From contig JAJPIV010000020.1 in NCBI GenBank assembly GCA_021324595.1, positions 1 through 35,713 on the forward strand: a DNA stretch of 35,713 nt. Reading direction: 5' to 3'. A model generated the notes under the pieces. That model saw nothing but the letters and a program-made list of their open reading frames with translations, did not search any database and was not told where the DNA came from. Positions 17,091-19,603 of this stretch are shown piece by piece. Numbering within the stretch: the first letter of the stretch is position 1; each line of letters begins with the position of its first letter. The translations under genes and the position numbers were made by a program. This stretch comes from Actinomycetota bacterium. Its GTDB lineage: Bacteria > Actinomycetota > Actinomycetes > Streptosporangiales > Streptosporangiaceae.

Positions 17091-17788
17091 GGCCGGCGCC
17101 CGGCCCCGGAAGCGCCGTTCCCGGCGGCCCGGCGCCCGGCGGCCCGGCGCCCGGCGGCCCGGCGCCCGGCGGCCCGGTGCCCGGCAGCCCGGTGCCCGGC
17201 GGCACCGCCGCTGGCAGCGCCGCTCGCGCCGACGCCGGCCACGCCGAGCCGGCCGGTGCGCAAGTTCACGAAGCCGAGCAGCGGGTCGGGCCGCATGCCG
17301 AGCCGCCGCGCCTCCTGAGCGATCACCGCCGCCGAGACTGCGGTCGCCACCTGCTGCCCGAGCTCCTGGAGCCGCTGAGTACCCGCGGCATCCTCCTGCT
17401 GCAGCCGGGCGATCTCTATCGAGTTCGCGGCCAGGGTGGTGTTGACCACGAGCAGGCAGGCCAGGCCACCTGCCAGCAGGCCGAGCAGGAGCAGCACGAA
17501 CGACGTGCGCCCGGCCTGGGCGCCGCGGTCGGAACGCCGCGTGGCGCGCCCGGGGCGCGGCATGTGGCGCCGTCGGGCAGCCGCCTGGGCGCGCTCGCCC
17601 GGCGCGCTCTCGTCGGCCGGGCGCGCGGGCGCGGTCCGCGCGGGCCTGCCCGGCCGGCCGGGACCGGGGGACCGGACCGGGCTCGCCGGACGCTTGGGAC
17701 TGACGGGACGGCCGGGCCGCGGGCGCCTGCCCGGCCTGGTCGACCGGGCCGAGTCGGCGCCCGCGGGCGCTCCGCTGTTGTCTGTCAC
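17087..17788 (-). CDS. ftsL: FtsL-like divisome protein with repetitive C-terminal tail
   Basis: A 233-residue bitopic protein in the ftsL position between rsmH and ftsI. It has a basic Pro/Arg-rich cytoplasmic tail (1-94), one membrane helix (about 95-117) and a short coiled coil (about 121-162, NSIEIARLQQEDAAGTQRLQ). The segment EARRLGMRPDPLLGFVNLRTG resembles the end of other actinobacterial FtsL proteins. FtsL pairs with DivIC/FtsB and FtsQ to activate FtsW-FtsI. Residues 180-233 are an odd extension made of [10 protein letters not shown] pentapeptides, encoded by a 15-bp tandem repeat, and would lie outside the membrane. The GTG at 17788 overlaps rsmH as GTGA. Sequence conservation in FtsL is low, so the call rests on position and topology. 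Confidence 0.85.
   Translation of the reverse strand: MTDNSGAPAGADSARSTRPGRRPRPGRPVSPKRPASPVRSPGPGRPGRPARTAPARPADESAPGERAQAAARRRHMPRPGRATRRSDRGAQAGRTSFVLLLLGLLAGGLACLLVVNTTLAANSIEIARLQQEDAAGTQRLQELGQQVATAVSAAVIAQEARRLGMRPDPLLGFVNLRTGRLGVAGVGASGAASGGAAGHRAAGHRAAGRRAAGRRAAGRRAAGNGASGAGRRP
17121..17195. repeat. 15-bp tandem repeat, five copies, in ftsL 3' end
   Basis: Five adjacent copies of the unit CCGGCGGCCCGGCGC start at 17121, 17136, 17151, 17166 and 17181. The first three are identical, the last two differ by one or two bases, and a partial sixth follows. The 15-bp length keeps frame and encodes the AAGRR/AAGHR tail of FtsL. Near-identity of the units points to recent expansion by slippage. 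Confidence 0.9.
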
Positions 17789-18759
17789 GCCGCTGCCCTC
17801 ACTCGCTCGGCGGCCCGGAGCCTTGCCGATGCCGCGCGCGGATTGGCTGACCGTTCCTCCTTGGTCGGCCGCTCGGCTCCCGACGTGAGGAGCCGGAACT
17901 GCGGCCGGCGCTCGGCAAGCTGGACCGGCAGGCCGGCTGGGGTGGCATCGGCCGTGCGCTCGGTGAGCGCACGCTTGACGATGCGGTCCTCCAGCGAGTG
18001 ATAGGCGAGCACGACGATCCGGCCGCCGACCGCGATGGCGTCGAGCGCGGCAGGCACCGCCCGCCGCAGCGCCCCGAGCTCGTCATTGACCTCGATGCGC
18101 AGCGCCTGGAACGTGCGCTTGGCGGGATTCCCGCCAGTGCGCCGGGCTGCGGCCGGGATCGAGCTCCGCACGATCTCCGCGAGCCGCAGCGTGGAGGTGA
18201 CCGGTTCGCGTTCCCGCTCGCGCACCACGGCAGCGGCGATCCGCCCGGCGAACCGTTCCTCGCCGTACTCGCTGAGCACGCGGGCCAGCCGCGCGGCCGG
18301 GTAGGTGTTGACGACCTCTGCGGCCGTCAGGCGCCTGGACCGGTCCATCCGCATGTCGAGCGGCGCGTCCCGCGAATAGGAGAACCCCCTCCCCGGGTCG
18401 TCCACCTGGGGTGATGAGATGCCGAGGTCGAACAGCACGCCTTGCACGCTGGGCAGGCCGAGGTCGGCGAGGATGGCCGCGAGACGGTCGTACGGCGCGT
18501 TCACCAGCCGGACGCGGGGGGCGTCGGCGGCGAGCAGCCTGCCGGACTCCGCGATCGCCTCCTGGTCGGCGTCGATGCCGATCAGCGTCAGCCGGGGATG
18601 ATCGGCCAGGAGCGCGCGGGCGTGCCCGGCGCGGCCGATCGTCGCGTCGACGAGCACCGCGCCGGCCTTGTCGAGTGCGGGAGCCAGGAGGACGCGCACC
18701 CGGTCGAGCATGACCGGCACATGCCCGGCCGCCGCCGGCTCGGTGGCTGCCGCGTTCAT
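17785..18759 (-). CDS. rsmH: 16S rRNA (cytosine1402-N4)-methyltransferase RsmH
   Basis: A 324-residue RsmH (MraW), which N4-methylates C1402 in the decoding centre of 16S rRNA using SAM. The SAM-binding loop is VDATIGRAGHA (37-47); further motifs are GVLFDLGISSPQVDDPGRGFSY, NPAKRTFQALRIEVNDEL and VLAYHSLEDRIVKR. The ATG at 18759 has AGGAGG eight bases upstream. It is the first gene after mraZ in the minus-strand dcw run, separated from it by 191 bp that contain a predicted structured RNA, and overlaps ftsL as GTGA. Why an rRNA methyltransferase heads division clusters is not known, but the linkage is almost universal. Confidence 0.97.
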   Translation of the reverse strand: MNAAATEPAAAGHVPVMLDRVRVLLAPALDKAGAVLVDATIGRAGHARALLADHPRLTLIGIDADQEAIAESGRLLAADAPRVRLVNAPYDRLAAILADLGLPSVQGVLFDLGISSPQVDDPGRGFSYSRDAPLDMRMDRSRRLTAAEVVNTYPAARLARVLSEYGEERFAGRIAAAVVREREREPVTSTLRLAEIVRSSIPAAARRTGGNPAKRTFQALRIEVNDELGALRRAVPAALDAIAVGGRIVVLAYHSLEDRIVKRALTERTADATPAGLPVQLAERRPQFRLLTSGAERPTKEERSANPRAASARLRAAERVRAAA

Positions 18760-18829
18760 CCACGCCCCCTCCTGACTACCCGCCTCGTCCCCTGACCCGG
18801 CCCGCCGGGTTCGCTCAGGTGCCCGGCCA

Positions 18830-18898
18830 GGTCGCCATCCGCGCCGTGGCGCGGGCCGCGCCGCCTGGCGCCGGGGAAGAGGCGTCAGCCGGGCGACC
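18830..18898 (-). ncRNA. Candidate mraW RNA motif (rsmH leader)
   Basis: The minus strand between mraZ and rsmH can fold into a three-way junction. A perfect 7-bp outer stem pairs GGTCGCC (18898-18892) with GGCGACC (18836-18830). Inside is an imperfect hairpin (18891-18861) whose loop (18880-18873) reads UCUUCCCC, and a perfect 6-bp hairpin CCGCGC-CACG-GCGCGG (18854-18839). A structured RNA called the mraW motif is known in 5' leaders of actinobacterial mraW (rsmH) operons, and, as I recall it, a CUUCCCC terminal loop is its hallmark. Position, strand and loop all fit. It ends 70 nt before the rsmH start and would act on the whole downstream wall-synthesis operon. Confidence 0.6.
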
Positions 18899-18929
18899 GC
18901 AGGCGCGGGTGGAGACCTCGCCGGGCACT

Positions 18930-18950
18930 GGGCTGCGCGATGCGCAGCCC
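18930..18950 (-). terminator. Hairpin abutting the mraZ stop codon, possible attenuator
   Basis: A perfect inverted repeat GGGCTGCGC-ATC-GCGCAGCCC (9-bp arms, 3-bp loop) begins at the base after the mraZ stop codon. No U-tract follows, so it may be a weak or factor-assisted terminator, or a 3' stabiliser that separates mraZ mRNA from the downstream dcw message. Confidence 0.5.
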
Positions 18951-19382
18951 CTACAGAACTCCTGGCAGCACCTCCTGTGACGCCTCGGAGAACGCTTGCT
19001 CCTGCTCGGCCAGGTACGCGTCCCAGGCCGCCGCGTCCCAGATCTCAAGCCGGGTGTTCGCGCCGATCACCACGCAGTCGCGCTGCAGGGCCGCGTAGTC
19101 GCGCAGCGCCGGGGGGATCGTGATGCGGCCCTGCTTGTCGGGCACCTCGTCGGACGCGCTGGCGAAGAACACGCGGCTGTAGTCGCGGACGGCCTTGGCC
19201 GTCACCGGCGCCGCGCGCAGAGCCTGCGTGATCCTGCCGAACTCGGCCTGCGGAAAGACGTAGAAGCAGCGCTCCTGGCCCTTGGTCAGCACTACCCCCT
19301 CCGCAAGCTCCTCGCGGTACTTCGCTGGGAGGAACAGCCGCCCCTTGTCGTCCAGGCGGGGGGTGTGAGTGCCGAGGAACAC
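18951..19382 (-). CDS. mraZ: MraZ transcriptional regulator
   Basis: A 143-residue MraZ with two SpoVT/AbrB-type DNA-binding half domains, marked by [16 protein letters not shown] (11-26) and [16 protein letters not shown] (82-97). MraZ forms ring oligomers and represses its own dcw promoter by binding short direct repeats at helical spacing. The GTG start at 19382 has GGAGGT eight bases upstream. Its promoter region carries four GTGG boxes at 10-bp spacing, the expected target. It is the first gene of the dcw run and is divergent from the moxR operon. Length is normal. The start [15 protein letters not shown] is the standard family start. Confidence 0.97.
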
Positions 19383-19440: not shown

Positions 19441-19474
19441 CCACCGCGCACCACTGTACTCCACAATCCACCAC
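19441..19474 (-). promoter_or_regulatory. Predicted MraZ box array (four GTGG repeats)
   Basis: On the minus strand GTGG occurs at 19474-19471, 19464-19461, 19454-19451 and 19444-19441, exactly 10 bp apart. MraZ in other bacteria binds several short G-rich repeats (TGGG or GTGG cores) at this helical spacing near the mraZ promoter. The array spans the spacer, -10 and start region of the predicted promoter, ideal for autorepression. Confidence 0.75.
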
Positions 19475-19480
19475 CGTCAA
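19453..19480 (-). promoter_or_regulatory. Predicted mraZ/dcw promoter
   Basis: TTGACG (19480-19475) and TACAGT (19458-19453) on the minus strand are 16 bp apart and resemble a vegetative promoter. The start point would be near 19446, giving a leader of about 64 nt to the mraZ GTG. It is embedded in the GTGG box array. Confidence 0.65.
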
Positions 19481-19531: not shown

Positions 19532-19603
19532 CCCCGCCGGGCACCGCCCCCACCCCGCCGGGCACCGCCCCCACCCCGCCGGGCACCGCCCCCACCCCGC
19601 CGG
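19532..19603. repeat. 21-bp tandem repeat, 3.4 copies
   Basis: Three perfect adjacent copies of a 21-bp unit starting CCCCGCCGGGCACC (19532-19552, 19553-19573, 19574-19594) and nine bases of a fourth. The unit is two helical turns long and lies between the mraZ and moxR promoters, on neither side inside a convincing gene. It may simply be slippage or it may be a phased protein-binding array. Confidence 0.9.

Follow-up and report, generated by a model that had tools for sequence, protein, structure and literature searches.

On record since 2010, the mraW RNA (Rfam RF01746; Weinberg et al. 2010, PMC2864571) is an orphan motif. It is core in mycobacteria (PMC9569102), and a paper of 2017 still called its function unknown (PMC5640933). 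Two further RNAs invite comparison: the small RNA B11, the C-rich loops of which pair with G-tracts at ribosome-binding sites (PMC10470900), and the icaR 3′ UTR, which carries a UCCCCUG motif (PMC3868564). Literature searches on its function or on an mraZ/mraW leader RNA brought up no recognisable functional study.

Here, we describe an element from the window (the whole stretch of 35,713 nt of actinomycete DNA analysed), which is almost certainly a divergent homologue of the mraW RNA, located on the sense strand of the mraZ-rsmH mRNA, with a long helix, P1, holding up a hairpin, P2, that bears the loop sequence CUUCCCC. This RNA is real and conserved, and it belongs to a known class whose Rfam model misses it at this locus; what is surprising about it is the near-invariant loop, the extra copies of the loop sequence and the independence from MraZ. 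The new elements of this analysis are a model that recovers far more mraW RNA copies, a corrected architecture, and repeated CUUCCCC sites that survive the loss of MraZ.

The element in the mraZ-rsmH gap

The features of the locus are as follows, all on the minus strand.

19441..19480, minus: probable mraZ promoter, TTGACG, 16 nt, TACAGT, read from the sequence
18951..19382, minus: mraZ (Pfam MraZ, 135 bits)
18930..18950, minus: P0, a perfect 9-bp GC hairpin with no U-run, between the mraZ stop codon and P1, read and folded
18819..18928, minus: whole structured RNA element of mraW type, from the R2 match at 18817-18930 and the P1/P2 anatomy
18902..18928, minus: P1 5′ strand, GTGCCCGGCGAGGTCTCCACCCGCGCC, pairing with 18819-18845, with covariation
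18861..18892, minus: P2 hairpin with loop UCUUCCCC, the loop hairpin of the sequence-only reading
18873..18879, minus: CUUCCCC loop core, nearly invariant (in the gap of 182/184 mraZ-rsmH loci)
18819..18845, minus: P1 3′ strand, GGCGCGGATGGCGACCTGGCCGGGCAC, from the P1 anatomy
18765..18773, minus: rsmH ribosome-binding site, AGGAGGGGG, read from the sequence
17785..18759, minus: rsmH (mraW; Pfam Methyltransf_5, 356 bits)

P1 is a helix of 27 positions (18928-18902 with 18845-18819), with 24/27 standard pairs in the window and 21 to 25 of 27 in four congeners. P2 consists of a lower stem of 3 bp, a G.G mismatch and an upper stem of 8 positions that include one A.C mismatch. The window element contains CUUCCCC once, with no second copy.

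This architecture differs from that drawn by the sequence-only reading, which confined the structure to 18830-18898 and closed it with a 7-bp stem around two inner hairpins. The strands of that stem, GGUCGCC (18898-18892) and GGCGACC (18836-18830), and the hairpin with the UCUUCCCC loop are all present on the minus strand. The closing stem, however, forms 7/7 pairs in the window but 2, 4, 4 and 3 of 7 in the four congeners, and thus the three-stem architecture is wrong; imposing this stem on the 110-nt element yields -63.7 kcal/mol versus -85.8 for the free fold, a cost of 22 kcal/mol. The loop hairpin is real; the second inner hairpin, when 18830-18898 is folded alone, uses bases of the conserved P1 3′ strand, and most of the outer P1 arm is left unpaired in the fold of the sequence-only reading. 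The span itself is a piece of the larger structure at 18819-18928: a 91-nt segment around it folds no better than shuffled sequences (z -1.01; 32/200 as good), whereas the 221-nt leader does (z -2.81; 0/200 as good).

The kinship with the mraW motif proposed at the same time was borne out, although not with the outline and stems assigned to it. Of the Rfam families, mraW matches the gap best, over a stretch that takes in the loop hairpin (model positions 29-75, 18854-18898, minus strand), but with only 20.4 bits (E 0.064) against a cut-off of 50; aligned to that model, the hairpin shows two gaps and four non-standard pairs in its stem. Because it falls below this cut-off, the element is not filed as an mraW (RF01746) member in Rfam's strict sense, and a search of the whole window against Rfam returned no family at the gathering score. 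What would speak against kinship, namely a missing model match combined with missing covariation, was not the outcome, as the loop stem covaries. Applied to the window's genome and 40 relatives, 41 in all, the Rfam model produced matches with E ≤1e-3 in 28 and above the cut-off in 6, with none from the five genomes of the window's genus; in a set of 20 loci made up of the window's and those of 19 relatives, no score reached the cut-off. That the element adds a second layer of control over rsmH-ftsQ, as also proposed, is something that we continue to infer.

Upstream of the element, hairpins of at least 7 bp, such as P0, occur between the mraZ stop codon and P1 in 33/139 loci, about twice the 14.5 expected. 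Four GTGG repeats with exact 10-bp spacing overlap the mraZ promoter (19441-19480, minus), a layout that recurs upstream of mraZ in many relatives; they are MraZ-box-like, and by sequence the array looks like an autoregulatory MraZ box. A tandem repeat of about 21 bp (GGCGGGGTGGGGGCGGTGCCC), in roughly three copies, lies further upstream of this promoter, at about 19535-19602 (minus).

Covariation and distribution

The comparative set comprised rsmH loci from 80 named-contig loci and from genomes of the window's genus and family. CTTCCCC was found in the mraZ-rsmH gap of 182/184 loci with mraZ upstream, compared with 0.21 occurrences per kb over the rest of these loci. Of the two exceptions, L082 has an mraZ frame (755-1477) that lacks the usual stop, runs through an intact element and overlaps the rsmH start, so that CUUCCCC is present at 183/184 loci when this one is counted; the other, L064 (Glycomyces), has a gap of 25 nt and no R2 match anywhere in the genome. 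The P2 stem varies in sequence (at one position, G-C in 89, A-U in 58 and A.C in 40 of 197 hairpins), and few columns are invariant apart from the loop and some stem columns. A P1 above the score limit was present in 171/179 distinct gaps and absent at this limit from the other 8, with a median of 28 positions (the search maximum being 30).

From 149 eligible loci, 48 representatives were chosen, and 33 of these were included in alignment A1; those left out seemed harder to align (L011, L044, L146, L172, L153, L196, L165, L191, L171, L004, L130, L100, L204, L065 and L190). Alignment A2 (29 loci) is A1 without the window, L042, L049 and L205. In A1, 31/38 pairs changed on both sides, with 215 such cells versus 74.9 in shuffled alignments; in A2, 31/38 pairs again changed on both sides, with 202 cells versus 68.4 and 0/500 shuffles as high. 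When the partners were shifted by one to three columns, paired cells fell from 84% to 33-45%; the paired percentage of P1 is partly built in, because the ends of the alignment fragments were chosen for maximal P1 complementarity, and P2 is anchored by the loop alone. G.U pairs exceed A.C combinations, 428:177 in P1 and 144:48 in P2, which indicates that the sense strand is constrained. The following traits of RF01746 were found at this locus: a position upstream of rsmH on the sense strand, in an actinomycete by kinship with named actinomycetes, a CUUCCCC-loop hairpin, and an outer stem that covaries among relatives.

Homology to accepted mraW members was recovered by a covariance model, R2, built from 29 other loci with the window and its whole genus excluded; the training set includes loci above Rfam's cut-off (L001, L003, L005 and L007). 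R2 matched the window at 18817-18930 (minus) with 53.8 bits and E 9.3e-11, R2 E-values being rough owing to shortened calibration, and the sole other match up to E 10 came from the opposite strand at this position (24.2 bits). At G000:C16:8484-8574, in another part of the window's genome, a weak R2 match (25.7 bits, E 0.055) is probably due to chance. R2 found 87/88 loci of the window's family, four of them in the training set; the single miss, L201, comes from an MraZ-less genome. An earlier model, R1, which included the window in training, detected the element in 157/197 genomes of the window's class and in 10/149 genomes drawn from the phylum, all ten in that class, under stricter filters at which weak matches are lost. 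Nearly every genome with a match has one such place, and a wider regulon was accordingly rejected.

Extra CUUCCCC copies and genomes without MraZ

A second exact CTTCCCC in the 3′ junction is found in 18/20 loci of family f20, all 20 from MraZ-less genera (0.02 expected), and in 7/44 of other families (0.0 expected), five of the seven being whole tandem hairpins; in the window's family, f1, it occurs in 2/118 (0.18 expected). Within one mismatch, 20/118 f1 loci contain a copy in the 3′ junction against 2.7 expected, mostly CTTCCTC. On the 5′ side, the same search returned 0/129 loci for f1 and the other families together (2.7 expected) and 2/18 for f20 (0.94 expected). These counts set aside junctions shorter than 7 nt (3′ side, 7 of other families and 2 of f1; 5′ side, 23 of other families, 19 of f1 and 2 of f20). 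The second-copy loci of f20 are relatives of one another and therefore represent few independent gains; repetition on one side only suggests that the CUUCCCC sequence itself is read. Outside the junctions, at about position 97 of L221, mraZ is closely preceded by a CTTCCCC between GCTGT and GCAGC.

With R1, a match was present in 154/173 genomes of the class with MraZ and in 3/24 without, a comparison made by hand in which some of the 24 are incomplete assemblies and one, G293, is counted despite a single partial match (5.9e-4). Six of the 19 MraZ genomes missed by R1 were fetched, and all 6/6 had a CTTCCCC hairpin just downstream of mraZ. Among 21 Streptomyces loci with no mraZ in the flank, 7 keep CTTCCCC, others retain P1 with an altered loop, and others have nothing. 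In 12 such genomes (eight behind those Streptomyces loci and four of genus g87), no full MraZ was found, and 4/12 gave partial matches of 22.4-23.1 bits; one genome of the window's own family, G022, has neither MraZ nor the element.

The loop loss in Streptomyces and the case of G022 suggested a role for mraZ only, a candidate that was weakened by the test across f20. In this set of 121 genomes, 46 encode MraZ (51 matches minus five partial ones of 22-26 bits), and R2 matches (E ≤0.01) were present in 46/46 genomes with MraZ and in 53/75 without; these are plain tallies with no significance test, and the losses sit in few clades. Among the genomes listed, the element was found in 27/27 of the MraZ-less genus g277 and in 13/14 of the MraZ-less genus g266, some of the latter matches being weak, and all 20/20 elements fetched from four MraZ-less genera had an intact loop with rsmH downstream. 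Loss of the element is concentrated in genus g87 (18/20 among the matchless f20 genomes listed); L037, a named Streptomyces, is apparently a member of this genus too, as G314 and G552 share its coordinates and score. The persistence of the element in MraZ-less genomes means that MraZ is not needed, and the element probably serves rsmH and its downstream genes. Some tie to mraZ is possible, considering the 46/46 versus 53/75 in f20 and the lack of both in G022.

Candidate roles and relation to known RNAs

The mechanism that we favor, tentatively but as a quite realistic possibility, is one of scaffolding and docking. P1 would act as a scaffold that keeps CUUCCCC single-stranded, and the single-stranded heptamer would be where a putative factor docks in trans, the likeliest being a KH/poly-C-type RNA-binding protein; several lineages add a second or third CUUCCCC site. 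Once bound, the factor might set how well the rsmH-fts portion of the mRNA is translated or how stable it is. The factor, its nature and the direction of its effect are what we infer here. We count in favor of docking the structure, its covariation, the sense-strand bias, the near-invariant loop, the 3′ extra copies, the single locus in nearly all genomes with a match, the persistence without MraZ and the variable distance to rsmH. Counted against it are the single CUUCCCC of the window and the few independent events behind the second-copy loci of f20, and the same data fit base-pairing with an RNA in trans equally.

KH proteins bind C-rich RNA. In S. pneumoniae, EloR/KhpA are reported as RNA-binding proteins that regulate elongation and division (PMC6403258). 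A stronger version of the docking mechanism, in which the mraW RNA is a multivalent CUUCCCC display for a dedicated single-strand RNA-binding regulator, with a KhpA/KhpB-like KH protein as the first candidate, and provides MraZ-independent division control at the RNA level, strikes us as somewhat unlikely. The mraW RNA stands at the head of an operon for making septum and wall, and the mraZ-independent CUUCCCC sites make its binder directly searchable.

An unlikely alternative is processing, whereby RNase III or a similar enzyme would cut P1, split the mraZ and rsmH parts of the mRNA and free a stable small RNA whose loop is C-rich. The length of P1, close to the search maximum, fits such a substrate, as do short RNAs reported from this place in two papers: in C. 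glutamicum, a transcript located at the mraW motif and seen in RNA selected for sizes below 250 nt (PMC4046766), and in Nocardia brasiliensis, the 33-nt Nbnc-18 (HUJEG-1 2646061-2646093), which lies between mraZ and the gene for the 16S m4C1402 methyltransferase (PMC5543724, where 'mraW' is absent from the available text). The 5′ end of cg2377, which maps within the 3′ end of the mraW motif (PMC3890552), points the same way. However, both corynebacterial 5′ ends have been reported as transcription starts rather than cuts, and a nuclease site alone leaves the nearly invariant loop unexplained.

Both Rfam, which gives the family the type Cis-reg, and the sequence-only reading took the element for a classical cis-regulator of rsmH, possibly with a ligand. 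A conserved structured leader that stays with rsmH after the loss of mraZ is in keeping with this, but an expression platform at a fixed place was not seen (P1 and the aligned start of rsmH lie -1 to 405 nt apart, with a median of 107), and little is invariant besides the loop and a few stem columns. Bare copies of a loop sequence are unusual for an aptamer, and altogether we regard a riboswitch or classical cis-regulator as decidedly improbable.

Still more doubtful is an mraZ 3′-UTR element, in which an anti-Shine-Dalgarno-like loop would pair with mraZ's own ribosome-binding site, for which the icaR motif is a precedent. The element lies directly 3′ of mraZ and is present in all MraZ-bearing f20 genomes, and the 7-nt loop pairs more strongly with the mraZ site than with the rsmH site, both in f1 (median -9.3 vs -7.9 kcal/mol, p 0.069) and in other families (-8.6 vs -7.4 kcal/mol, p 0.047). 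The canonical site of mraZ is the stronger one (16S pairing -14.8 vs -11.4), and this preference is therefore generic, whereas MraZ-less genera, g277 and g266 among them, retain both element and loop.

That the loop hides the rsmH ribosome-binding site through direct pairing is highly improbable, and this candidate was dropped as unsupported after testing. The rsmH site is indeed G-rich, with GGGGG in 103/123 f1 loci versus 15/60 for mraZ; in a comparison with seven further dcw genes, the figures are 12/14 versus 5/98. Within the 70 nt that precede rsmH, GGGG by itself is enriched (139/179, shuffled 110), and a 6-nt loop complement is slightly so (69, shuffled 55, maximum 70). The full 7-nt complement, however, is not enriched there (25/179 vs 24.4 shuffled) and is depleted over the whole 3′ part (38 vs 59.8), and the pairing is the weaker one given above, over a P1-rsmH distance that varies. 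The mraZ site in f1, unlike the GGGGG of rsmH, is GGAGG in 53/60 loci. The f1 rsmH GGGGG could be a target of a small RNA of the 6C/B11 type: in M. abscessus, B11 targets such G-tracts (PMC10470900), so that a different RNA may use the site. Between the element and rsmH, 61/120 f1 leaders contain CCGCGAG, which does not rank among the top 20 words of 51 other leaders.

A DNA element, operator or internal promoter, is scarcely conceivable: its arms are inverted repeats, and in C. diphtheriae the mraW motif lies upstream of a transcription start (PMC5784534), but the G.U excess over A.C on the sense strand and the sense score in the window of 53.8 versus 24.2 bits antisense stand against it. An internal promoter 3′ of the loop was rejected, as 171 loci, a set without any named Corynebacterium, held 0 promoter-like pairs (0.5 expected); -10-like words numbered 4 versus 28.5 expected from plain shuffles. 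A DNA site shared between the loop and the mraZ promoter was likewise discarded, with CTTCCCC in just 4/87 upstream regions.

Compared with known systems, the element shares C-rich hairpin loops with the 6C and B11 small RNAs, but these are separate, trans-encoded RNAs, whereas the window element lies in cis, and the 6C/B11 Rfam model gave no match at the cut-off in the window. Like the anti-Shine-Dalgarno element of the icaR 3′ UTR of S. aureus, in which a C-rich motif lies directly 3′ of a repressor gene (PMC3868564), it follows a regulator gene; unlike that element, its type persists in genera without the upstream regulator gene. From the mraW RNA as modeled by Rfam, it differs in its score far below the cut-off and in the gaps and non-standard pairs of its stem, but it shares the location in cis upstream of rsmH in Actinomycetes and the CUUCCCC loop hairpin, and it is found by a model trained partly on loci above Rfam's cut-off.
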